Origin: a virus
Length of the DNA: 52,571 nt
Virus record (IMG/VR): IMGVR_UViG_3300031670_000002
Span: 1-52,571 of that record
Strand: one strand, 5' to 3'
Under the pieces are notes generated by a model. It was not told where the DNA came from and ran no database searches. It was given only the letters and a program-made list of their open reading frames with translations. The translations under genes were made by a program, and so were the position numbers. Positions 2,484 to 52,571 of this stretch are shown here, piece after piece. Positions within the stretch are counted from its first letter, which is position 1. Each line of letters begins with the position of its first letter.

Positions 2484-2941
2484 GCGAGCGCCCAAAAAAC
2501 GCAAAGGGTACAACGCCGCCTGTTCCTGCCCGCGACGTGAACGCTGCCGCCCGCGCTCAGGTCGCGTTACGCTTGCGTGCGCAGCATCTGACCTGGGACG
2601 AGATCGCGGCGCAAGCGGGCTACGGGTCGCGCGGCGCGGCGCACAACGCCGTGAAACGCGAGTTGGATCGCTGCCTCACGCACGATGTCAAGGCCATGCG
2701 CGACGAAGAGTGCTACGCGCTGGAGCAACTGCAAGGCCGCTGTTTCAAGGCCGCCACTGATGAGAGCAACAGCGGCTGGACATGGGCGGTGGATCGCTTT
2801 GTCGCGCTGTCCAAACGCAAATCGGAACTGATGGGGCTGGACACGCCCATCGACAGTGCCGGATCAGCCAATCTCGTGATCGTGCGCGAAGTGCCACGCG
2901 GCTATCTCGGCAATCCGCCAGCAGTGGAGGCGCAACCATGA
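2480..2941 (+). CDS. terS: Terminase small subunit (putative)
   Basis: 153-aa basic protein. An N-terminal helix-turn-helix-like stretch (RLRAQHLTWDEIAAQAGYGS, residues 31-50) and a helical oligomerisation region are the usual plan of small terminases, which bind the packaging site and hand DNA to TerL. The call rests on size, the HTH and its place two genes before the large subunit; the sequence itself is divergent. It overlaps the methylase gene by ATGA. Confidence 0.65.
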   Translation: MSERPKNAKGTTPPVPARDVNAAARAQVALRLRAQHLTWDEIAAQAGYGSRGAAHNAVKRELDRCLTHDVKAMRDEECYALEQLQGRCFKAATDESNSGWTWAVDRFVALSKRKSELMGLDTPIDSAGSANLVIVREVPRGYLGNPPAVEAQP

Positions 2942-3513
2942 GTGAGAAGAGCAACGAATGGTACACGCCCGCAAAGTACATTGAGGCGGCGCGTACCGTC
3001 ATGGGCAGCATTGACCTTGATCCGGCATCGTGCGAGTTGGCAAATCGAACCGTCAAGGCGGCGCGGTATTACAGCAAAGAAGAGAACGGCCTGGCGCAAG
3101 CGTGGTATGGCAATGTGTGGCTCAATCCGCCGTTCGGTACAACCATGCAGCAATTTGGGAACAGTGCATGGCAGGGTCAAAGCATCGCAAGTCTGTTTAT
3201 GGGCAAGTTGATAGAAGAATATCACAAGGGAACGGTGACACAGGCGGTTTTACTTGCGAAAGCAGACCCAAAACAAAACTGGTTTAGCCGTTTATGGGAA
3301 TTTCCTATCTGCTTTGCTTATGATCGGGTCTATTTCAATCGTCCTATCGGAGAGCCGTGTAGACATCAATTTGGTACGTGTTTCGTCTATCTCGGCCCCC
3401 ATGAATCGCGTTTCATTGACATTTTCTCGCAGTTTGGGCGCATCGCAAAGGCGATTGATACGCCGCGCCAGCCTGTCGCCAGCCCGCGCGAATTGTGGGA
3501 GGTGGCAGTATGA
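2938..3513 (+). CDS. Phage Dam-like N6-adenine DNA methyltransferase
   Basis: 191 aa. SNEWYTPAKYIEAAR at the start and the catalytic WLNPPFG (NPPF, about residue 62) identify the phage Dam family (PF05869), which methylates adenine using S-adenosylmethionine. The start at 2938 was chosen because it overlaps the terS stop and matches the family's usual N-terminus. Lying between terS and terL, it is expressed with packaging, which suggests genome modification before encapsidation or protection from host restriction. The cognate site is not predictable from sequence. GC content drops in 3170-3330, hinting at acquisition. Confidence 0.85.
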   Translation: MSEKSNEWYTPAKYIEAARTVMGSIDLDPASCELANRTVKAARYYSKEENGLAQAWYGNVWLNPPFGTTMQQFGNSAWQGQSIASLFMGKLIEEYHKGTVTQAVLLAKADPKQNWFSRLWEFPICFAYDRVYFNRPIGEPCRHQFGTCFVYLGPHESRFIDIFSQFGRIAKAIDTPRQPVASPRELWEVAV

Positions 3514-4892
3514 CGACGGCGCTTCCCGAACTGGTGATCACCGCACCGGAACTGCGCGGCGGCAATCTCGCGTTAGGCGCGTGCCGCGACACGGAGGTGT
3601 TGCTCGACGGCCCGGCGGGAACTGGCAAGACGTATGCCGCGCTGTACAAAATTCACGTCATTCTCACCAACTACCCGCACTCCAAAGCCCTTGTCGTCCG
3701 CAAGCACAACAGCGACTTGGCGGGTAGTGCGATGGCGACGTTTCAGGATAACGTGCTGGACCCGCGCGAGGGCGTCTATTATTTCGGCGGCAACAAAGTC
3801 AAACCTGCGGGCTACATCTACCCGAACGGATCGTTTCTGGCGGTCAACGGCCTGGACAAGCCGACCAAAGTCAAGTCGTTCGAGTGCGATATCGCCTATA
3901 TCAACGAAGCATCGGAGTGCAGCGTCGAGGATATCGAGTTCGTGCGCATGCGCCTGCGCAAAGGCAACAACCCGTTTCAGCAGATCATTATGGACACGAA
4001 CCCCGACGCGCCGACGCACTGGCTCAACCAGCGGTGCAACGACGGCGTGACCACGCGCCTCTTGTCACGTCATGAGGACAATCCGCGCTACTACGACATC
4101 CGTACACAAGATTGGACAGCCGCCGGGCGCGACTACATCTTCGGCATTTTGGGCGGCCTGACTGGCGTGCGCCTGGCTCGCTACCGTTACGGCGCTTGGC
4201 GCGCAGCCGAGGGAACGGTATTTGAGGACAGTTGGGACCGCGCGCGCAACGTGATCGAGCGTGCCACCATCTCGGCGCGCCCGCATGACCTCTTTGGCGA
4301 TTGCGGCATCCCGCGCGATTGGCCGCGCTATCTCGTGATCGACTTTGGCTTCACCCACCCGTTCGTGTGCATCTGGGCGGCGCGTGACCCCGACGGACGC
4401 CTGATCATCTACCGGCAGATATACCGCACGAAAGTCCTCGTGGAGGATCACGCCAAAGAGATTCGCCGCCTGTCGCGCTGGGGGCAAGACGGCGGCGATC
4501 CCTTGCCGCGTGAGATCATCTGCGACCATGACGCCGAGGGACGCGCCACGCTCGAACGCCATTTGGGCCTGCACACGACGCGCGCCCACAAAGCCGTGTT
4601 AGAGGGCATTCAAGCCACTGCCGCACGTTTCAAGCCCGCCGCCGACGGTCGCGCCCGCCTGATCATCCTCACCGGCAGTCTCGTCGAGCGCGATCAGGAA
4701 CTGGCGCGTGCCAAAAAGCCGACTTGTGTGGAGGACGAACCCGACGGGTATGTCTGGCATAGCGGCTCCGGTTTTCGCGCCAAAGAGGAGCCGGTCAAGG
4801 AAGACGATCACGGCGTCGATGTATGCCGCTACCTTTGTGCGCGTTTTGACATCAAATCAACCGATATCACGTACAGCCACCGGGTGTACTAG
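3510..4892 (+). CDS. terL: Terminase large subunit
   Basis: 460 aa packaging motor. The ATPase domain has Walker A GPAGTGKT (about residues 36-43) and a Walker B-like IAYINEA followed by ASEC. The C-terminal RNase H-like nuclease domain has VIDFGFTHP, ICDHDAEGRATLE and DDHGVDVCRY as its acidic catalytic positions. The length is normal for the Terminase_3/6 type. The start is ATG 3510, overlapping the methylase stop (ATGA) behind GGGAGG. No intein or truncation is seen. The packaging mode (cos or headful) cannot be decided from this. Confidence 0.9.
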   Translation: MTTALPELVITAPELRGGNLALGACRDTEVLLDGPAGTGKTYAALYKIHVILTNYPHSKALVVRKHNSDLAGSAMATFQDNVLDPREGVYYFGGNKVKPAGYIYPNGSFLAVNGLDKPTKVKSFECDIAYINEASECSVEDIEFVRMRLRKGNNPFQQIIMDTNPDAPTHWLNQRCNDGVTTRLLSRHEDNPRYYDIRTQDWTAAGRDYIFGILGGLTGVRLARYRYGAWRAAEGTVFEDSWDRARNVIERATISARPHDLFGDCGIPRDWPRYLVIDFGFTHPFVCIWAARDPDGRLIIYRQIYRTKVLVEDHAKEIRRLSRWGQDGGDPLPREIICDHDAEGRATLERHLGLHTTRAHKAVLEGIQATAARFKPAADGRARLIILTGSLVERDQELARAKKPTCVEDEPDGYVWHSGSGFRAKEEPVKEDDHGVDVCRYLCARFDIKSTDITYSHRVY

Positions 4893-4907: not shown

Positions 4908-6416
4908 ATGCTACCAACGCCCACGATCACACAACCGACCAGTAGCCCGACCGACGCCGTGCAGCCGGTTTATACCGTGACGGCAGCCGACAAAGCGCGG
5001 CAGGAGCGCATCGCCTTCGCCTGGAAAGCCTACGAAGGCCGCTTAGATCGCCCGCTCGTGCCGCTGCCCGGCGATCCCGACGATAACGTGCTGAGCAACC
5101 GCTGTCAGCAGATTGTGGATCGCGGCATCGATTTCCTGTTCGGCAAAGAGATCGAGATCAGCGTCAGCAGCGACGCGCCGGACACGGCTCAGGACGCGAT
5201 TGACGCCGTGTGGGGTCGCAAAGAGACGCGCATCCCGCTCTTGCAAGACCTCGCCATGAACGGCGGCATGGCCGGGCGCGCCTTTTTGCGCATCATGCCG
5301 AACAAGGACGCCACGACCTTTCGCCTGATCACGGTTGACCCCGCCATCGTCAGCGTCAAGACCGCGCCGCAGGATTGCGATACCGTGCTGCTGTATCACA
5401 TCGAGTACAGCGTGCAAGAGTCGGTCAACAGCAAGCCGCAGACCGTGTGCTACTGCGAAGAGATCGCCCGCATCGATCCCGACGGCAATGCCCAGCGCGG
5501 TGCGCCCGACGACGACGATACGTGGCAAGTCAATCACTGGACGCGCGTCGGCGAGCGCGGCAACTGGACGCCTGACCCCGACGGCGCGTATGCGTGGCCC
5601 TACAACTTCCCGCCGCTGTTTAGTTGCAAGAACCTGCCCAAGCCCAATAGCTTTTGGGGAACGCCTGACCTCACACCCGACCTGATCGGCCTCAACAGCG
5701 CGCTCAATTTGGTGCAATCGTGCATCAACCGCACGGAAAAGCTCTATGGCAACCCGATCCTCTACAGCACGGGCGCGGGATCAGGGACAATGGATATCAC
5801 GCCGGGCAAGATCGTCAACCTGCCGGAAAATGCCAAAATCACCGCCGTCGCTATTCCGACCGACGTGGTGAACGCGCTGGCCTTTGCCGCCAACTTGCGC
5901 AGCGACATCGACGAACAATCCGGCGTGCCGGGCGTGGCGACCGGGCGCATTGCCGATTTGCCGCGCGGCACGATGAGCGGCATCGCCATCGAACTGTTGT
6001 TCATGCCGCTCATCAAGAAGACCGACAAAAAGCAGTGTTTGTACGGCGATCTACTCATCGCCGTGACCCAGGCCATTCTCACGCTCAGTCACATCGACGG
6101 CACGTTCACCGTCGAACTGTCCTGGCAATCGGCACTGCCCGACGACGACCTGCTGTCCGTGCAGGCGGCCATTGCCAAAAAGGAAATCGGCATCTCCGAC
6201 GCGACGCTCCAGCGCGAGATGGGCTATGACCCTGATGAGCAGATGGCGCTGGCGCAAACGGAGGACGCGCAAAAACTCGCGGCCTGGTCGCGCGGGCAAG
6301 GGCTGCCGACGCTGCCGGAGGCGCTGCCCGGCACAAAGCCGCTGCCGATGCAACCGAAGCCGCTACCCGGCGCGCCCGCGCCAACAGCAACACCAACAAC
6401 CGGAGGGCAAGCATGA
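4908..6416 (+). CDS. Portal protein (SPP1 gp6-like)
   Basis: 502 aa, immediately after TerL with a GAGAGGA ribosome-binding site. It contains the portal-type regions NRCQQIVDRGIDFLFGKEI and GLNSALNLVQSCINRTEKLY, and ends in a proline-rich tail. It forms the dodecameric channel at the capsid vertex through which DNA is packaged. Its place before a MuF-like minor head gene is the SPP1 order. It overlaps the next gene by ATGA. Confidence 0.88.
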   Translation: MLPTPTITQPTSSPTDAVQPVYTVTAADKARQERIAFAWKAYEGRLDRPLVPLPGDPDDNVLSNRCQQIVDRGIDFLFGKEIEISVSSDAPDTAQDAIDAVWGRKETRIPLLQDLAMNGGMAGRAFLRIMPNKDATTFRLITVDPAIVSVKTAPQDCDTVLLYHIEYSVQESVNSKPQTVCYCEEIARIDPDGNAQRGAPDDDDTWQVNHWTRVGERGNWTPDPDGAYAWPYNFPPLFSCKNLPKPNSFWGTPDLTPDLIGLNSALNLVQSCINRTEKLYGNPILYSTGAGSGTMDITPGKIVNLPENAKITAVAIPTDVVNALAFAANLRSDIDEQSGVPGVATGRIADLPRGTMSGIAIELLFMPLIKKTDKKQCLYGDLLIAVTQAILTLSHIDGTFTVELSWQSALPDDDLLSVQAAIAKKEIGISDATLQREMGYDPDEQMALAQTEDAQKLAAWSRGQGLPTLPEALPGTKPLPMQPKPLPGAPAPTATPTTGGQA

Positions 6417-6775
6417 GACCGATCAAGTTTCGGGCATGGCATACGCGCGAAAAGAAAATGTATCCGGTGCGAACATGGTACTTCGATGCCGCATCTCATC
6501 AGATCGAACTTGAGGGCAAGCCGGTGATTGAGGCTTTTACCATCGGTGAAGACGTTGAGATCACGCAGTTCACCGGCCTGCTTGATCGCACTGGCAAAGA
6601 GATATGGGAAGGGGATATCGTGAGAAGTAGCAACGGCGCGTACATCTCCCGTATTGAGGATATCCACGCCTTTTGTGGAGAAACCGGCCTCTATGGGGAT
6701 GACGCCGATGAAGTGGAAATCATCGGCAACATCTACGAAAACCCTGGCTTACTCGCAACAGGAGGACAGGCATGA
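6413..6775 (+). CDS. YopX-family phage protein
   Basis: 120 aa. The family signature is clear at both ends: MRPIKFRAWHTREKKMYPV at the start, then FTGLLDRTGKEIWEGDIV and VEIIGNIYENPGLL near the end (PF09643). The molecular role of YopX proteins is not established. It is a common phage moron, here wedged between portal and head genes, coupled by ATGA on both sides. Its AT content is higher than that of the portal gene. Confidence 0.85.
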   Translation: MRPIKFRAWHTREKKMYPVRTWYFDAASHQIELEGKPVIEAFTIGEDVEITQFTGLLDRTGKEIWEGDIVRSSNGAYISRIEDIHAFCGETGLYGDDADEVEIIGNIYENPGLLATGGQA

Positions 6776-7053
6776 GCAGAAAAAATGTGCGCATTGTGAA
6801 TGACGGCAAGCCGGGCTATGATACCCTCGTGACCGACGCTGACACCGGGACGGAGATACTGCATGTGATGGCAGTCGATGTTCACCTGGAGGCAAACAGA
6901 GAGTTGCCACAAGCGATCCTCACGATGGGGTTGCCGATCGTCGATATCATTGCTGACGCTGAGATCAAGCAGGTGTGTCCCTGCTGTGGCCGTCCCGTCG
7001 AGCAGCAACCCGCGCCCGAATCGCCCTATCTCAGCAAAGGCGGTGGCGCATGA
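6772..7053 (+). CDS. Hypothetical protein with CPCCG motif (93 aa)
   Basis: Begins MSRKNVRIVNDGKPGYDTLV. A single CPCCGRP near the C-terminus looks like half a zinc ribbon. The preceding part (HVMAVDVHLEANRELPQAIL) resembles small phage proteins that carry one conserved metal-binding tail. Coupled to both neighbours. No function assigned. Confidence 0.6.
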   Translation: MSRKNVRIVNDGKPGYDTLVTDADTGTEILHVMAVDVHLEANRELPQAILTMGLPIVDIIADAEIKQVCPCCGRPVEQQPAPESPYLSKGGGA

Positions 7054-7615: not shown

Positions 7616-7887
7616 GCGAGCAGCGCACCCGTTACGCCGACGCGCACGACATGATCGTCTATCGCACGCTCGCACTGCTGGTGAGCGAGGACGCGCCGCG
7701 CACCGTGCGCCTGCTTGACGCGACCACGGGCGAGACGATAGCCGGTGTCACCGCCTGTCACCTTGCGCGTGACGACGCGGGCCATGTCAGCGCGACATTC
7801 ACGATAGCGGACATCGATGTGAGGTGCCCGCATGACCTGGTACCGGCGCATCGGCAGATCGCCGCGCTTATGGGAGAAGAAGCATGA
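7612..7887 (+). CDS. Hypothetical protein (91 aa)
   Basis: Begins MSEQRTRYADAHDMIVYRTL; mixed alpha/beta composition, no recognised motif. Coupled by ATGA at both ends inside the accessory cassette between portal and minor head genes. Confidence 0.6.
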   Translation: MSEQRTRYADAHDMIVYRTLALLVSEDAPRTVRLLDATTGETIAGVTACHLARDDAGHVSATFTIADIDVRCPHDLVPAHRQIAALMGEEA

Positions 7888-8276
7888 GCAACACCGTCAA
7901 ACAAGCGCGAGTGATCAGCGGAGGATCAGGCACAATGCACATCGGATCAGCAGGCGGCCATGCGATCCCCGTCAACTCCTGGTCAATGACCGTGATTGAA
8001 GAAACCAGTGTGGTTGAGGGAAGAGCAAGCGAACCGCCAGCGATGGGCATAATCTCCATCGCTGTGTGTGAACATCCTGAGATGAATAGCACGTCCGATC
8101 TTTTGGGCAATCGCATCTATTGGTGTGGTGTGTGCCACAAGAAAATCATCATTCCGATGTCTCAAGCAAGTTTGAACGCCTTGAACACTCAGGACGCGCA
8201 AGCAAACTTTGCGGGCATGATGGCCGTAGCCTTTGGCGAAATGTGGGGGAAACGCGCAGCGGAGGGCCAGATATGA
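7884..8276 (+). CDS. Hypothetical protein with possible zinc ribbon (130 aa)
   Basis: Contains AVCEHPEM and YWCGVCHKK, spaced like the two halves of a short zinc ribbon (residues about 54 and 78). Codon use is more AT-rich than in the structural genes around it, suggesting later arrival. ATGA overlaps on both sides. Function unknown. Confidence 0.6.
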   Translation: MSNTVKQARVISGGSGTMHIGSAGGHAIPVNSWSMTVIEETSVVEGRASEPPAMGIISIAVCEHPEMNSTSDLLGNRIYWCGVCHKKIIIPMSQASLNALNTQDAQANFAGMMAVAFGEMWGKRAAEGQI

Positions 8277-8674
8277 GCAAACATCCCATACACGCCGCGC
8301 ACGAACCGTACCGCGCCCTGCTCTTGCACCGCGAGGCCGTCATACAGCGCGACTTGCACACGGCACACCAACGCGCGGTGGCAGCAATTCAACCGCACAT
8401 CGACGCGCTGTTACGCGAGTTGGCAGACAAGCAAGCGACGCTGGACGAAGGTGAGACGATCCCGCTGATCTGGCTGCGGGAAAACCATCGCATCGCGCGC
8501 CTGCAAGCCGTGATCAGCGCGCACATCGACGCCTATAGCCGTTACGCGCATGGCGTGGCCGTGGCAGCACAGCGCGAGGGCGCAACGCTCGGCACACAGG
8601 CGGCGCACGCGGCCATGCACGCGTCAGTACCGGAGGGCGTACAATGGACGTTTAAGCAAGCGAGGGAGAAATAA
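8273..8674 (+). CDS. Minor head protein (MuF-like), N-terminal half
   Basis: 133 aa, almost entirely helical. The run from HREAVIQRDLHTAHQRAVAA to AAQREGATLGTQAAHAAMHA and GVQWTFKQ matches the N-terminal region of SPP1 gp7/MuF-type minor head proteins. In those proteins, WTF-R-P is followed at once by the segment that here begins a separate gene at 9664. The product stops at AREK, so the head protein appears to be made as two polypeptides. The break holds four small genes (8674-9667), all translationally coupled. The call rests on recognised family pattern, not on a search. Confidence 0.7.
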   Translation: MSKHPIHAAHEPYRALLLHREAVIQRDLHTAHQRAVAAIQPHIDALLRELADKQATLDEGETIPLIWLRENHRIARLQAVISAHIDAYSRYAHGVAVAAQREGATLGTQAAHAAMHASVPEGVQWTFKQAREK

Positions 8675-8850
8675 TGGCATCGACGGCGTTTCATCTCACA
8701 TTTACGTATACGATGATAGGCGATCACTCTCTCCTTGTGCATTTCTTTGGGTGCAAGGTCGATCATTGGATGTTGCTTGACCTTGCTGAAATCAGCAGCG
8801 AAACCGGCAAATCGTCTACGGAAATCATTGAGCAGTTGAAAGGTGAGTAG
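8674..8850 (+). CDS. Hypothetical small protein (58 aa)
   Basis: Begins MASTAFHLTFTYTMIGDHSL; its start shares a base with the previous stop (TAATG). Lower GC than the head genes flanking it. First of four genes lodged between the minor-head halves. No family recognised. Confidence 0.5.
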   Translation: MASTAFHLTFTYTMIGDHSLLVHFFGCKVDHWMLLDLAEISSETGKSSTEIIEQLKGE

Positions 8851-8854
8851 GGCT

Positions 8855-9070
8855 ATGAGCGACGGAAGCGATTGGGATCAGTTGAGCAGATCGCAACAAG
8901 ACGCGGTCGATGTTTTGCGAGCGCAGATGATCGATCGTTTGACGGCAGATGCGGAGGCATTCTATGGGCTTTATCCTGACCTGCAACTATCGTGGCGCTT
9001 TGAGTTGTACCCGCTTCTTCGAGGTCAGCATGGGACATTCAGAAATCCTGACACACTGGAAGAACTCTGA
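8855..9070 (+). CDS. Hypothetical small protein (71 aa)
   Basis: Begins MSDGSDWDQLSRSQQDAVDV; acidic and helical, no recognised motif. The upstream GTG at 8843 is also in frame, but the ATG at 8855 lies 4 bp past the previous stop and follows GGTGAG, so it was preferred. Confidence 0.5.
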   Translation: MSDGSDWDQLSRSQQDAVDVLRAQMIDRLTADAEAFYGLYPDLQLSWRFELYPLLRGQHGTFRNPDTLEEL

Positions 9071-9083
9071 GAAGGAAAAGCCG

Positions 9084-9215
9084 ATGAATAGCAAAGGAAG
9101 ATTGTATCGTCTCATCATGCGGATTGCGCATCACTATCACTGGCATTATGCGCCGCCGGTTTACCCGGAAGGTGAGATGCAACGGTGGTGTAAATGGTGC
9201 GGGTTAAGACAGTAA
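9084..9215 (+). CDS. Hypothetical basic microprotein with WCKWCG motif (43 aa)
   Basis: MNSKGRLYRLIMRIAHHYHW..., ending RWCKWCGLRQ. A histidine-rich segment plus CxxC could bind a metal. It has GAAGGA upstream and is AT-rich compared with the structural genes. Function unknown. Confidence 0.5.
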   Translation: MNSKGRLYRLIMRIAHHYHWHYAPPVYPEGEMQRWCKWCGLRQ

Positions 9216-9229
9216 AGGAGAAATAGCAT

Positions 9230-9667
9230 ATGACATGGTATCCCGTTCAAGTATCGCTTCCTGGCGCAGGTATGATCGCCGTACTAGGAAAGCCATACGA
9301 AACCTTAACCGATGGATTCATTCAGGATTGGATGTTTGAACTTGCCCGCACGCATGAGGTCAGTCCTGATTATCTACTGGTAAGCCAGGAAATCCGCAGC
9401 GAGCTTCATCGCATCGTTCAGGATGATCTTCATCTGTGGCAGTGGGCCGCGCACCATGCCAGAGATGCGGATACCGGAGAAGTTGCGGAACGCTATCCCA
9501 ATAAAATCACCGGCAAATCGCTCGGCATCGTCGTTTTCCCTGGACTACCGGCAAAAGTGCTTTTTGTGGCAAGTCTGCTTGAGATGCGCGATGAAAAGAC
9601 ACACATCGATGGCATTACGCGCATCGTCACTCGCACCTATGCGGGAATCTGGGAGAACAAGGAATGA
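9230..9667 (+). CDS. Hypothetical protein (145 aa)
   Basis: Begins MTWYPVQVSLPGAGMIAVLG behind AAAGGAG. Soluble, with a DLHLWQWAAHHARDADTGEV stretch; no family recognised. The last of four small genes between the minor-head halves; its stop overlaps the start at 9664 (ATGA). Confidence 0.55.
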   Translation: MTWYPVQVSLPGAGMIAVLGKPYETLTDGFIQDWMFELARTHEVSPDYLLVSQEIRSELHRIVQDDLHLWQWAAHHARDADTGEVAERYPNKITGKSLGIVVFPGLPAKVLFVASLLEMRDEKTHIDGITRIVTRTYAGIWENKE

Positions 9668-11790
9668 GGCCAGGGATGATCGGCGCTGGCCTGGGCGATC
9701 CGTCGCTGCGGGCGCTGGAGCAATTGAGCAACGCCTTGCAGCAGGGGCCGCTCGCTGATCTCTTCGCGGGCTTCGGCACGGAAGCGTCGCAAAAAGCGCG
9801 CGGCATCCTGATGATGGCGCTGCTCAACGGCGATAATCCGACGTGGGATAAGGACGGCCCATCGATTGCCAACGCGCTCCAACAGGCGTTGAACACGTCG
9901 CTGTACCGCGCGCAAACGATTGCACGTACCGAGATGCTCAACGCCTATCGCGACAGCAACCTTGCCAATTACCGCGCCAATGCTGATGTGGTGGATGGCT
10001 GGGTCTGGACGGCGGATTTGTCAGCGCGCACCTGTTTTCCTAGAGGCACAATGATAGAAACAAGCAAGGGGCAAATACCGATTGAACAAATGGAACTAGG
10101 AGATGAAGTTTTAACACATGAAGGTCGCTATAAGCGCGTGACGGTTGTCATGGCGCGGCCTTATTCGGGAGAAATGATAACCGTGAATTGTGGGGAACAT
10201 TCAGTCACCGCTACCGTCGATCACCCGTTCCTGATCGAGCGGCAAGGCGAGTTGTATTGGATAGAGGCTGGTCATATCCGTTTGGGCGATCACGCTATCT
10301 GCTATCGTGAGGGCGCTACGGATATAGCCGATCATACCTTCAGTCAGATTGCCATAGAAGGGCGTATCAGGCAAGCGGATAACGGTATAGCCCCGGCTTT
10401 GCAAGAACAGCGTCTTGCGGGCGTCTCTTCTCACCACATCAGGCCGGTTATGCCAGTACACGCCGTCAATCTCCAAAACAGTATTCAGGCTGGTCAAGAG
10501 GAAATCAACAGGATATCTCCAGCCATTGATAAGATGCTCTTGCGAGTAGGGGATACCCAACGTTTCCAGGCACATCCGGGCGTTCTTTTCCGGTTCGGTT
10601 TCGCCAGTGAAGCAACGGTAACAGCGTGGCGAGCAGAAAAAGCGATCCCCTTGTTCGGTAGGACGGATACGAAACGTTTTTCCGCACTGTCTGCACGTCT
10701 GAGTGATGGTTGGGCGTCGGCATTCCTCAGAGCAGTAGGTGTTATCAGAACGTTTTTGACGAAAAATCTTGTCACACCGCTTACAAGTAACATAGATCGT
10801 CCGCATATGCTTACAGGCATTAGAACAATAGATTTGGTTTCGCACGCTAGGAGAAGTAGTAAAAGTTTTTCCGCAAATAGGACAAATTTTCTCATGGCGT
10901 TCATGGGCTTTACGGCATTCAAGCGAGCAGTAGTCTCTCAGACGCCGCTGCTGTACGCAAAACGTTTTACCACAGCCTTTGCAAACCAAATCGAGACATG
11001 GTTTCGCCTCTTTGCCGCGCTGTGTATGGGGGCATTCCCGTTGATAGATAGTGTAGCAAGCATTGGAACAAAACCGCCGATTGCCTTTGCGTTGCCACGC
11101 TTTGGGAATGATAAACGGCTTTCCGCAGATTTCACAGGTCAATTCAACCCGTTCCGTCGCGTGTGCCGCTTTCCAGGCATCACGGCATTCTTTGCTACAA
11201 TACGCCCGTTCCTGTCTTGCGCGATTGCTGATGTCCATCCAGGCATCCTTACCGCACACTGCGCAGACGCTTTTGAGTTTCCTTCTATCGCCAGGATCGC
11301 GCTCAATATCAAGTCTTTTCATGCATCCATTATATCACAACTTGACCACCACATCCAGCGCGATACAACGGTGTATAACCTGGAGGTTGAGGGCGATCAC
11401 AGTTATGTGGCCGATGGCTTTGTCGTGCATAATTGTGCCGCGTGCATTTCGCAAAACGGCACACTGCATAGCCTGGACGAAACAATGGATGAGCATGTGT
11501 GTGGGCGGTGCAGTCCGATCCCGCATACCAAATCCTGGTCGGACATCCTGAACAACGCGGGCTATGACACGAGCGGCCTGGACTTGCCAGACAGCGCGCC
11601 CGCTCTACCGAGCGGCGCGGATTGGTTTGCCGCGCAATCGGCGGACGTGCAACAGCAGGTACTCGGCAAGGCGGGCTACGCGCTCTATCAGTCCGGCACG
11701 CCGCTCGCGGATTTTGTCGGCATCCGGCAGAACGCGCAATACGGCCCGTCGATTTATGTCAAGTCGATCAAAGAATTACAGGGAGGCTAA
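9664..11790 (+). CDS. Minor head protein (MuF-like), C-terminal half, interrupted by an intein
   Basis: 708-aa precursor. Residues 1-123 (MRPGMIGAGLGDPSLRALEQ..., TIARTEMLNAYRDSNLANYR, DGWVWTADLSART) and 591-708 (CAACISQNGTLHSLDETMDE, HVCGRCSPIP) join into the MuF-type core, where SART-CAAC is the usual continuous sequence. Residues 124-590 are an intein (see 10033-11433). Spliced, the host product is about 241 aa. It acts with the portal in head assembly or DNA ejection. The family N-terminal region is encoded separately at 8273. The C-terminal 80 residues (SADVQQQVLGKAGYALYQSG) resemble the usual MuF tail. Confidence 0.85.
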   Translation: MRPGMIGAGLGDPSLRALEQLSNALQQGPLADLFAGFGTEASQKARGILMMALLNGDNPTWDKDGPSIANALQQALNTSLYRAQTIARTEMLNAYRDSNLANYRANADVVDGWVWTADLSARTCFPRGTMIETSKGQIPIEQMELGDEVLTHEGRYKRVTVVMARPYSGEMITVNCGEHSVTATVDHPFLIERQGELYWIEAGHIRLGDHAICYREGATDIADHTFSQIAIEGRIRQADNGIAPALQEQRLAGVSSHHIRPVMPVHAVNLQNSIQAGQEEINRISPAIDKMLLRVGDTQRFQAHPGVLFRFGFASEATVTAWRAEKAIPLFGRTDTKRFSALSARLSDGWASAFLRAVGVIRTFLTKNLVTPLTSNIDRPHMLTGIRTIDLVSHARRSSKSFSANRTNFLMAFMGFTAFKRAVVSQTPLLYAKRFTTAFANQIETWFRLFAALCMGAFPLIDSVASIGTKPPIAFALPRFGNDKRLSADFTGQFNPFRRVCRFPGITAFFATIRPFLSCAIADVHPGILTAHCADAFEFPSIARIALNIKSFHASIISQLDHHIQRDTTVYNLEVEGDHSYVADGFVVHNCAACISQNGTLHSLDETMDEHVCGRCSPIPHTKSWSDILNNAGYDTSGLDLPDSAPALPSGADWFAAQSADVQQQVLGKAGYALYQSGTPLADFVGIRQNAQYGPSIYVKSIKELQGG
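10201..11322 (-). CDS. Zinc-finger homing endonuclease, antisense within the intein
   Basis: 373 aa. Six consecutive zinc modules of the form CxxC-n-CxxxC occur (CAVCGK...YCSKEC, CEICGK...FCSNAC, CKGCGK...YCSLEC, CPICGK...YCSNAC, CKRCDK...YCSEEC, CRQCGK...FCSPRC). A Vsr/DUF559-like nuclease domain follows (WRYPVDFLLT, VLEIDGVYWH, RRDARKTLFLQSRGYTVIRL), with acidic residues and a Lys typical of that fold. The zinc modules probably bind the target DNA and the C-terminal domain cuts it. The last 40 codons overlap intein block B. An extended -10 lies just upstream, giving an almost leaderless start. The codons are exactly in register with the intein frame. Confidence 0.88.
   Translation of the reverse strand: MKRLDIERDPGDRRKLKSVCAVCGKDAWMDISNRARQERAYCSKECRDAWKAAHATERVELTCEICGKPFIIPKAWQRKGNRRFCSNACYTIYQRECPHTQRGKEAKPCLDLVCKGCGKTFCVQQRRLRDYCSLECRKAHERHEKICPICGKTFTTSPSVRNQIYCSNACKHMRTIYVTCKRCDKIFRQKRSDNTYCSEECRRPTITQTCRQCGKTFRIRPTEQGDRFFCSPRCYRCFTGETEPEKNARMCLETLGIPYSQEHLINGWRYPVDFLLTSLNTVLEIDGVYWHNRPDVVRRDARKTLFLQSRGYTVIRLPDTPFYGNLTEGMIGYIRSALTIADSVIAQTDMTSLYPIQLALPLDQERVIDGSGD
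11329..11337 (-). promoter_or_regulatory. Extended -10 promoter for the antisense endonuclease
   Basis: On the minus strand, TGATATAAT lies 6 bp before the ATG at 11322. No good -35 is seen, which extended -10 promoters can tolerate. Transcription would begin almost at the start codon, so the message would be leaderless or nearly so and could be made independently of phage late transcription. Confidence 0.55.
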
Positions 11791-11793
11791 TCG

Positions 11794-12156
11794 ATGGAGG
11801 AGACAGAAGAGCAGAGGGAACGGACGGCGGCGGGTTGGCGCACGTCGCTTCTCAACCGAAACGCGGTTCCTCAACAGGGAAAGAAGGATAACCCCATGAA
11901 CGAAGATGATATCTATGAAGTCCAGGCAAGCGGCCCGTTTCACCGCTTTAAACTGGTACGGTCAGTTGATGTGACCGGCATCTCAGGAACAGGTGAGATT
12001 GCGCTGGGTATCCAGTGGCCGGATCAGTCCTGTACGCTGTTTTGGCTGAAACACAGCACACATGGTTATTATCACAGCATTGGACAGTTGCGGGCGATCC
12101 ACTGCTACAACGACAACGCCCGCGTTGAATGGATAGACGGAGTAACCCATGCCTGA
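11794..12156 (+). CDS. Hypothetical protein (120 aa)
   Basis: Begins MEETEEQRERTAAGWRTSLL behind GGAGGCTAATCG. A second possible start at ATG 11896 (MNEDDIYEVQASGPFHRFKL), preceded by AAGGATAACCCC, would give an 86-aa protein that looks like the folded core. No family recognised; it follows the minor head gene and overlaps the next gene. Confidence 0.5.
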   Translation: MEETEEQRERTAAGWRTSLLNRNAVPQQGKKDNPMNEDDIYEVQASGPFHRFKLVRSVDVTGISGTGEIALGIQWPDQSCTLFWLKHSTHGYYHSIGQLRAIHCYNDNARVEWIDGVTHA

Positions 12157-12391
12157 ACCAATACAGAACGGCGCGTCAGTCGTGCAAGAACCGACATTTC
12201 CGCAAGAGTCGCTGCGCATCGTGCCGCAGGGACTGATCATCACCGTGCAGTTCACGCCCACGTTCAGTATCAATCAGTTGATCCCGGCCAACGCGATGAA
12301 CGAAATTGCGGGCGCGTGGCTCGAATCGCGCAAGCAGATCAAGAAAGACCTGGAGATTATCCGGGATGTCAATCGTAGCAAGTTATCATGA
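12149..12391 (+). CDS. Hypothetical protein (80 aa)
   Basis: Begins MPEPIQNGASVVQEPTFPQE; the beta-like segment SLRIVPQGLIITVQFTPTFS precedes an amphipathic C-terminal helix. It overlaps the previous gene by 8 bp. No family recognised. Confidence 0.55.
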   Translation: MPEPIQNGASVVQEPTFPQESLRIVPQGLIITVQFTPTFSINQLIPANAMNEIAGAWLESRKQIKKDLEIIRDVNRSKLS

Positions 12392-33641: not shown

Positions 33642-33812
33642 CTACTCGGCAAACTCTTGCGCGCGCCTGATGCCATAGTCGCCCGCACGCAAGCGCGCTG
33701 CCGCCTCTTCGGGCGTGCGCCCCGTCGCCCACAGGCCGCCGTAACGCCGGTAGTCGGCAAAGACGGCGACAAAACTGCGATGATCATACTGGTAGACGAA
33801 GACGATCATCAT
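33642..33812 (-). CDS. Small protein, paralogue of 35225-35401 (56 aa)
   Basis: [20 protein letters not shown]...[11 protein letters not shown], then a divergent end. It is about 65% identical over the first 30 residues to the 58-aa protein at 35225-35401. The start overlaps the sigma-factor stop by ATGA. Function unknown; the duplication suggests a small regulatory or binding module. Confidence 0.6.
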
Positions 33813-34681
33813 GCTTCGGCCATGTCGCGCTGCTGGCGGAGCGCGCGTTTGAGTGTGGTTTCCAGCGCCTTGATGGCGATTTGGCGCACGCGCTCCCTGG
33901 TCACGCCGATTTCTTCGCTCATCTCTTCCAGTGTGCGCTCGCCCGCCCCGTCCAGCCCGTAGCGCAACGTGACGACTTTTCGTGTACGCGCGTCAAGCTG
34001 CGCAAGCGCGCGCTGCACTTGCTCCTCTAGGATAGCTTGCGCGGCCTGATCATCAGGCGTGCTGGCGGGATCGACCAGCGTGTCGCCCAATGACCAGCCG
34101 TTGAAATCATCCTGATCCAACGGAATATCCAATGATACCGGCTCTTTATCCCATGATAAATATTCATAGATTTCAGCTTCTGGCATGTCCATTGCTGTAG
34201 CCAGTTCTACGACGCTCGGTTCTCGGTTGAGATCATCTGTCAACAGGTTGAACGTCTTTTTGATTTTCTTGAGGATTTCATGGCGATAGACAGGCAAGGC
34301 AATAGGCCGGTAGCGTTCTGGGAGCGCGCGCTGGATCGCTTGGCGGATCCAATTCGTCGCCATCGTCGAGAAACGCGTGCCACGGCTATAGTCAAATCTC
34401 TCGACGGCTTTCATCAAGCCCAGATTGCCCTCCTGGATGAGGTCAAGCAATAGCGCCGGGTTGTTGTGGCTATAGGCTTTGGCGATAGAAACAACCAGGC
34501 GCAAATTGGCTTCGATGAACTGCTGGCGGGCTTGCATATCGCCTTGCGCTATCTGCCTTGCAAGGGATTGCTCTTCATCGGCTGTGAGTAGGGGATACGC
34601 GGCTATCTCTTTCAAATACGCACGGATATCGTCGTACATATCCGTAGCTACCTCAAGATGTGGCGCGATGCGTCTGGGCAT
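33809..34681 (-). CDS. Phage-encoded sigma-70 family factor
   Basis: 290 aa, primary-like (group 2) without region 1.1. Region 1.2 is [20 protein letters not shown], region 2 runs [12 protein letters not shown] ... [20 protein letters not shown] ... [20 protein letters not shown], then region 3 and region 4 ([40 protein letters not shown]). In region 2.3, the usual STYATWWIRQ reads [10 protein letters not shown]: a Tyr and a Trp that melt the -10 are replaced, so promoter use may differ. The start at 34681 follows GGAGGAGGATTGAC. It probably redirects host polymerase to a phage gene class. Confidence 0.9.
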
Positions 34682-52179: not shown

Positions 52180-52571
52180 ATGAAAAAGATTCTTGTTTTG
52201 ATTGCCGCCCTCGCGCTGGTGTTGACCGCGCTTGTAGGCGGCGGCGCTGCGCTGGCGTATCACCAGTCTATCTCAACCACCGTGTTCTACGCCTGTGAGA
52301 ACACCTCAACCGGCGCGATTGACAGTTCCACTATCACGCAGGATAGCGGGCTTGATTGCAGTACAGATGGCGCATTCTCTACCCTGGTCAATTGGAGTGT
52401 GACCGGCCCCAAAGGTGACGCTGGCCCCGCTGGCCCGCAAGGCGCGCCGGGCGTGCAGGGAACGCAAGGTGCAACTGGCCCTGTCGGCCCCGCTGGCACA
52501 CCTGGCACGAACGGAACCAATGGCTCCAACGTGCTAACCAGCCAGGGCGCGCCCACTGGCGCATGTACCAC
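52180..52571 (+). CDS. Secreted collagen-like protein, N-terminal part (continues at 1-575)
   Basis: N-terminal 130 residues of a protein of about 279 aa that runs across the circular join. It begins MKKILVLIAALALVLTALVG, a classic signal peptide with a lysine-rich n-region and a leucine/alanine core, so export is expected. A short Cys-containing stretch (FYACEN, GLDCST) follows, then Gly-X-Y triplets (GPKGDAGPAGPQGAPG). The ATG is preceded by GGAAGGA with good spacing. No convincing -35/-10 was found in 52060-52179, so it may be read through from the recombinase/HNH genes. A secreted collagen-like product could be a lysogenic-conversion surface protein or a virion fibre. The signal peptide argues for the former. 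Confidence 0.8.
   Translation, partial: MKKILVLIAALALVLTALVGGGAALAYHQSISTTVFYACENTSTGAIDSSTITQDSGLDCSTDGAFSTLVNWSVTGPKGDAGPAGPQGAPGVQGTQGATGPVGPAGTPGTNGTNGSNVLTSQGAPTGACT
52445..52571. repeat. 127-bp terminal direct repeat, right copy
   Basis: Right-hand copy of the sequence at 1-127, lying inside the collagen-like gene. It marks the circular join of the contig. Confidence 0.95.

Follow-up and report, generated by a model that had tools for sequence, protein, structure and literature searches.

The record IMGVR_UViG_3300031670_000002 of IMG/VR, from a bacterial virus, was analysed over its entire length of 52,571 nucleotides (hereafter the window) with respect to the gene for its MuF-type minor head protein. 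This gene is present as two genes separated by four small ones, and the second part carries an intein within which a homing endonuclease gene is found on the opposite strand. The features of the locus, with the evidence used to define them, are the following:

8273-8674, plus strand: separate gene of 133 amino acids for the N-terminal domain of the MuF-type minor head protein (profile of the N part of relatives)
8654-9693, no strand: inserted interval, bounded by the residues at which alignment to relatives ends and resumes (alignment ends; guanine plus cytosine (GC) content)
8674-8850, plus strand: inserted gene 1, 58 amino acids, without family match (list of open reading frames)
8855-9070, plus strand: inserted gene 2, 71 amino acids (same list)
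9084-9215, plus strand: inserted gene 3, 43 amino acids, with an alternative reading of 83 amino acids from 8964 (same list)
9230-9667, plus strand: inserted gene 4, 145 amino acids, with a weak match to phrog_13692 (E 0.002; same list)
9664-11790, plus strand: intein-bearing gene for the MuF domain and C-terminal part of the head protein, precursor of 708 amino acids (profile; PHROG head morphogenesis families)
10033-11433, plus strand: intein of 467 amino acids, C1...HN/C+1 (splicing motifs, Hint fold)
10204-11322, minus strand: homing endonuclease gene of 373 codons, stop codon at 10201-10203 (3r3p, PHROG and Pfam matches)
11329-11337, minus strand: TGATATAAT, resembling an extended -10 box, with 6 bases between its end and the ATG of the endonuclease gene (by eye)

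An initial annotation, made from the letters alone, had proposed a minor head gene split in two within 8273-9790 by a four-gene insertion, and had held that homologues placing 8273-8674 in an unrelated family, or close relatives with a complete MuF gene elsewhere, would speak against this proposal. Both products were compared with homologues, as it had suggested, using hidden Markov models (HMMs) built separately for the N part and the C part from 12 relatives and searched against all 1025 window open reading frames (ORFs) of at least 30 codons. The N-part HMM matches 8273-8671 (E 1.3e-25; next window ORF 0.47) and the C-part HMM matches 9664-11787 (E 2.7e-68; next window ORF 0.068); the N domain and the MuF domain of one protein are both present, but are encoded by two genes with 1 kb between them. 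These HMMs detected no further MuF gene anywhere in the record. At the level of sequence, the split of a MuF-type minor head gene is thereby confirmed, with 8273-8674 as the N part of the same family. The start and both ORFs had been placed correctly in the initial annotation; its end at 9790 lies inside the C half, which reaches 11790.

The N-half product ends with GVQWTFKQAREK ahead of its stop codon, and the C-half product starts with MRPGMIGAGLGDP. Alignment of the N part to relatives stops at the F of WTF (base 8653) and alignment of the C part restarts at GDP (about 9694), so that only KQAREK in the N half and MRPGMIGAGL in the C half extend beyond the relatives' alignment; no part of the head protein was therefore lost at the split. 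The C half matches MuF / SPP1 gp7 families (Pfam PF04233, TIGR01641; PHROG 241, 4728, 115), the match to the generic Pfam PF04233 being weak (0.008, below the family cut-off), and once the halves are joined, the domain order, the place after the portal gene, and the CxxC and HxNCRC-like motifs are those of MuF / SPP1 gp7. The N half alone has no Pfam or PHROG match, and a direct search with it gave no close relative. A fold search with the MuF model returned no PDB match at E up to 0.001.

Scanning of IMG/VR with the C part yielded 14 loci whose MuF ORFs hold both parts. In a wider scan, 59 distinct contigs (relatives with a usable C domain) carry N and C in one ORF, in line with the earlier premise that these segments are continuous in MuF-type proteins; in 20 more divergent relatives, which lack an N match, the ORF extends for 110 residues or more before it reaches the C domain, and 4 relatives are truncated. 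The only other interrupted MuF relative, locus L050 (6539-7618), has an in-frame stop codon at the same interdomain linker with no new start after it, which resembles frame damage or a sequencing error, and it was set aside as a second split gene. Locus L088 was likewise set aside, as the truncated end of a bacterial bin. In loci L036 and L037 (1198-2460), about 195 residues that the N-domain model does not match precede the C domain, and a different N domain may be fused there.

The position of the break was examined on relative L002, whose MuF gene is continuous. Its AlphaFold model (mean predicted local distance difference test score, pLDDT, 81.7) shows two long N-terminal helices, a coil at 116-128 and the MuF domain beyond it. 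If residues 1-3 are disregarded, pLDDT falls below 50 only at 120-125, and the break maps after residue 124, inside this stretch. In terms of the model, the break thus lies in a flexible linker between the helical N domain and the MuF domain, which makes two separately folded chains plausible. We infer that the split is best read as yielding two co-assembling polypeptides. It could also be that the C half alone is the head protein, with 8273-8674 a relic or serving another purpose, and the divergence of the N domain in distant MuF proteins, as in the 20 relatives with no N match, is in keeping with this. We consider it improbable, since all 120 aligned positions of the N half are kept with no frame break, its similarity to close relatives amounts to 90 bits, and both ends of its gene are integrated into the operon.

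The initial annotation had also described the gap as filled with four small, coupled and more AT-rich genes, and this description holds. GC content is 0.50 in the gap versus 0.63 in each flanking half, which makes the insert foreign in composition; the stop of the N half overlaps the start of inserted gene 1 (TAATG at 8672-8676), the end of inserted gene 4 overlaps the start of the C half (ATGA at 9664-9667), and the remaining intergenic gaps in the block measure 4 to 14 bases. From these overlapping or abutting starts, both halves are predicted to be translated as members of one operon. Beyond the weak phrog_13692 match, library searches assigned none of the four inserted proteins to a known family, and no relative of inserted gene 4 was found among annotated phages or IMG/VR. 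No clear repeats were found at the block boundaries, where the sole similarity is one of 77% over 22 bases between two ribosome-binding regions (8652-8673 and 9204-9225), which points to the leader of inserted gene 1 as the source of the final six codons of the N half. The block ends about 340 bases upstream of the intein.

Two further small genes lie between the portal and MuF genes of the window (6413-6775 and 6772-7053), with relatives elsewhere in loci L016, L004, L022 and L028, and inserted gene 2 is weakly related to a gene elsewhere in locus L003 (25% over 60 amino acids, E 6e-6). This different placement in relatives, weak in the case of inserted gene 2, suggests that small genes shuffle in the head module, which would be a site where small accessory genes enter and leave.

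A similar picture could arise from chimeric assembly, or from a defective provirus in which the gene is dead; the split is seen in a single record, and L050 is an instance of an interrupted MuF gene in an assembly. Such an origin seems about as improbable as a dispensable N half, if anything slightly more so: both halves have intact frames, conserved motifs and matching composition (GC 0.63 each), the TAATG and ATGA overlaps suit a settled operon, and no stop breaks the 467 codons of the intein frame either. Less likely by a clear margin is that the 1.04 kb block, with the genes it contains, forms an RNA intron whose removal would leave a messenger RNA encoding a single MuF chain. The protein alignment is indeed seamless across the block and homing elements do occur in the same gene, but a permissive Rfam search of 7800-12200 (E up to 1) gave no group I or group II intron and one chance match only, and family searches detected no endonuclease, maturase or reverse transcriptase in the block. 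Moreover, each half is bounded as a gene of an ordinary operon would be: the stop codon that closes the N half shares bases with the start that follows it, and the ATG that opens the C half shares bases with the stop that precedes it.

The C half had already been described as interrupted by an intein. The intein is real (TIGR01443, 2.9e-9; Hint_2, 1.3e-9); the endonuclease gene on its other strand had been overlooked. The intein lies directly ahead of the leading Cys in the CxxC motif of MuF (SART/C), has N- and C-terminal splicing motifs, proper first and +1 residues and a penultimate HN, and its reading frame contains no stop over 467 codons. The length expected for the C-half product once spliced is 241 amino acids. 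In the predicted model, intein residues 1-93 and about 443-467 form a Hint domain with pLDDT near 90, which resembles RecA, DnaB and hedgehog Hint domains with a VIA Z of about 20, and residues 109-442 have a pLDDT under 50.

The antisense gene spans intein residues 58-430, its C-terminal end also overlapping Hint-fold strands. Its product consists of zinc-finger-like repeats and an I-Bth0305I-like nuclease domain (EIDGVYWH). Matches were obtained to 3r3p, the catalytic domain of I-Bth0305I (E 1.1e-9; profile 1.4e-12), to phrog_1271 HNH endonuclease (4e-24) and to DUF559 (2.4e-6); homology to the EDxHD, Vsr-like catalytic domain of I-Bth0305I is thus present. The endonuclease codons are in register with the intein codons, and the intein frame is open because the endonuclease gene uses no TTA, CTA or TCA codon. 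Upstream of its start lies the sequence TGATATAAT, found identically over 9 bases and with identical spacing in locus L065; the intein frame reads these bases as SIIS, a conserved stretch, and a sigma-70 scan, which requires a -35 box, did not flag them. As a promoter element of the endonuclease gene, TGATATAAT is suggestive only. Promoter-like and ribosome-binding sequences were also seen by eye upstream of the antisense genes of the Vibrio phages described below. A 290-residue ORF of the window (33809-34681, minus strand) looks by eye like a member of the sigma-70 family and could matter for an antisense promoter.

Similar arrangements recur in other MuF genes. Locus L065, with a regional GC of only 0.36, shares the intein insertion site of the window, and its intein harbours an antisense endonuclease gene homologous to that of the window. 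In locus L083 and Vibrio phages 1.265.O, 1.266.O and 1.082.O, MuF inteins occupy a second site, before the CR of HxN-CR, and their antisense genes encode helix-turn-helix (HTH)-DUF559-type nucleases. A third type is found in the MuF intein of nine Gordonia phage records (SchottB, Barsten, Nordenberg, Thing3, Sitar, Lennon), where the antisense endonucleases are related to I-MsoI (LAGLIDADG) and phrog_5046. The register is the same in all six loci measured, and the antisense gene is annotated in none of the GenBank records opened. The antisense endonuclease genes of the laboratory phages are located as follows:

3145-3882, minus strand: Vibrio phage 1.265.O (L101)
3145-3879, minus strand: Vibrio phage 1.266.O (L103)
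about 5001-5720: Vibrio phage 1.082.O (L119)
3097-3684, minus strand: Gordonia phage SchottB (L106)
3501-4088: Gordonia phages Nordenberg and Lennon (L120, L121)

No antisense endonuclease was found in about 20 control inteins of methylase, reductase, helicase, terminase, portal and other genes, so that the antisense orientation is not general to inteins of such type. GC-rich control inteins do carry long chance antisense ORFs, and the three examined (372, 153 and 236 amino acids) have no family match.

Selection was assessed in two ways. Firstly, TTA, CTA and TCA codons are absent from all six endonuclease genes, and the chance of the resulting stop-free intein frame, computed from the codon use of each genome and the endonuclease protein, is 1.9e-4 in L065, 0.012 in L083, and 7e-9 and 1e-8 in Vibrio phages, which are mutually related. 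Secondly, differences between related loci were counted by codon position, sense position 1 being endonuclease position 3 in the overlap. Between SchottB and Nordenberg, the ratio of differences at sense positions 1 and 3 is 51:16 in the overlap versus 79:235 in the rest of the gene (p 8e-15), and 15 residues are changed in the antisense protein compared with 55 in the sense protein. Between Vibrio phages 1.266.O and 1.082.O the corresponding ratios are 8:1 and 28:118 (p 3e-5). Substitutions in the overlap thus fall at third positions of the endonuclease in both groups, which indicates selection on the endonuclease strand: the endonuclease is maintained as a protein, and the sense linker is held open yet free to vary. 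Likewise, the window and L065 are 46% identical in the endonuclease and 30% in the sense linker. That the antisense ORF is a mere by-product of reading a GC-rich intein backwards can be dismissed as hardly credible: long in-phase chance antisense ORFs do arise in GC-rich coding DNA (349 codons in an Eggerthella portal intein, 291 in Dante), but those examined match no family whereas the antisense proteins described here match solved endonucleases or nuclease families, GC is 0.44-0.46 in the Vibrio loci and lower still in L065, and both the codon-position tests and the comparison of the window with L065 favour the antisense protein.

Signs of mobility are also evident. Between Vibrio phages 1.266.O and 1.082.O, 16 differences were counted over 1020 intein bases compared with 156 over 1101 extein bases (p 1e-29), and this low divergence extends to third positions of the flanking splicing parts. 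Nordenberg and Lennon are identical over 825 intein bases and differ at 75 of 2280 extein bases (p 1e-10). Since inteins far more alike than their exteins are expected from recent homing, recent intein transfer into divergent MuF genes would be the natural reading of both pairs.

Taken together, these observations are with high probability best explained by an accessory-gene split of MuF combined with a mobile intein with an antisense endonuclease. The four-gene block (8654-9693) would have entered the MuF gene exactly at the linker between the helical N domain and the MuF domain, and the gene would have persisted as two translationally linked genes, for the N protein of 133 residues and a C protein. 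The 708-residue precursor of the latter would lose the 467-residue intein to leave a MuF domain of 241 residues, and the two head polypeptides would meet at the portal and head. A ribosome on the sense strand would read the endonuclease complement as a long, probably disordered linker between the splicing halves. The antisense gene, with its own start signals, could be expressed early, whereas MuF is a late head gene, and late sense transcription could then silence the endonuclease. We likewise infer splicing in vivo, expression of the endonuclease from its own promoter, and cutting of intein-free MuF genes.

Several points weigh against this explanation. Co-assembly, splicing and expression are deduced from sequence and models; the split is known from one record only, and mis-assembly at its two junctions is an improbable but conceivable source of it. 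According to the model, a disordered linker of 330 residues could slow splicing. The stop-free intein frame of the window is modestly improbable by chance (P 0.014) because its genome is GC-rich, and that of Gordonia (0.46) is uninformative alone, the strong tests coming from relatives. Finally, SchottB and Nordenberg show no excess identity of the intein, as expected if transfer is not always recent.

More generally, there is very probably a class of mobile inteins, seen to date in late phage genes for MuF-family head proteins, in which the endonuclease is encoded antisense, in register and within the intein. One stretch of DNA would serve as the endonuclease on one strand and as a disposable linker of the splicing domain on the other, and the endonuclease would be freed from late in-frame expression. 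At least three endonuclease types (zinc-finger/I-Bth0305I-like, HTH/DUF559-like and I-MsoI-like LAGLIDADG) would have arisen or been exchanged, at two insertion sites. Such inteins offer a possible answer to the question of how a mobile intein in a late gene gets its endonuclease made early. They also provide a clean example from nature of coding on both strands, governed by one simple rule, namely no Leu TTA, Leu CTA or Ser TCA codon in the endonuclease, in which the splicing protein must tolerate whatever the endonuclease complement encodes. Vibrio phages 1.265.O, 1.266.O and 1.082.O and Gordonia phages Nordenberg, Lennon and SchottB are laboratory phages in which this can be studied. As for the split itself, a head protein that may be divided at an interdomain linker by accessory genes, and persist, bears on the fragmentation of phage structural genes.

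Other features were noted in the window. Genes resembling phage adenine methyltransferases are found at 2938-3513 of the window and at 5649-6344 (minus strand) of L088; the latter is an Anaerolineae bin, and the shared gene type is a possible hint of a Chloroflexota host. Collagen-like GPAGPTGP triplets at the end of the record (52287-52520, minus strand) are possibly part of a truncated fibre gene.

Among known systems, MuF / SPP1 gp7 is the obvious reference for the head protein, from which the window differs in having two genes where 59 relatives have one. Fractured genes, reportedly described by Dassa et al. in 2009, are said to have the intein itself split, with a free-standing endonuclease gene of the I-Bth0305I type between the halves. 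The locus described here likewise combines a phage-associated host gene with an intein and with an endonuclease of this Vsr-like family; unlike in fractured genes, the intein at 10033-11433 is unbroken and runs through the endonuclease complement, and the break in MuF sits away from the intein. In standard inteins such as PI-SceI, PI-PfuI and TliVMA, the endonuclease is normally a translated, in-frame domain of the intein. The window intein resembles them in its Hint splicing domain with a mobility module between its halves, and differs in that the endonuclease is a separate antisense protein. Homing endonuclease genes in antisense orientation occur in nuclear group I introns (PMC9548176), where, as here, the endonuclease is on the strand opposite the host element. 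The host element in that case is an RNA, untranslated and with no need for a shared frame, whereas the bases of the intein are also translated in the sense direction; the Rfam search of 7800-12200 at E up to 1, with no intron match, shows that the window element is not of this kind. The open-licence literature searched, which is incomplete for the field, yielded no description of a contiguous intein with an antisense endonuclease within it. Insertional fission of the mitochondrial cox2 gene has turned one protein into two complementary polypeptides, with a nearby nuclease gene proposed as the agent (PMC5374615). It concerns an animal mitochondrion and an insert with antiparallel ORFs, and the insert of the window consists of small genes on the same strand; the split MuF gene appears, from its sequence in one record, to be a new form of gene fission.

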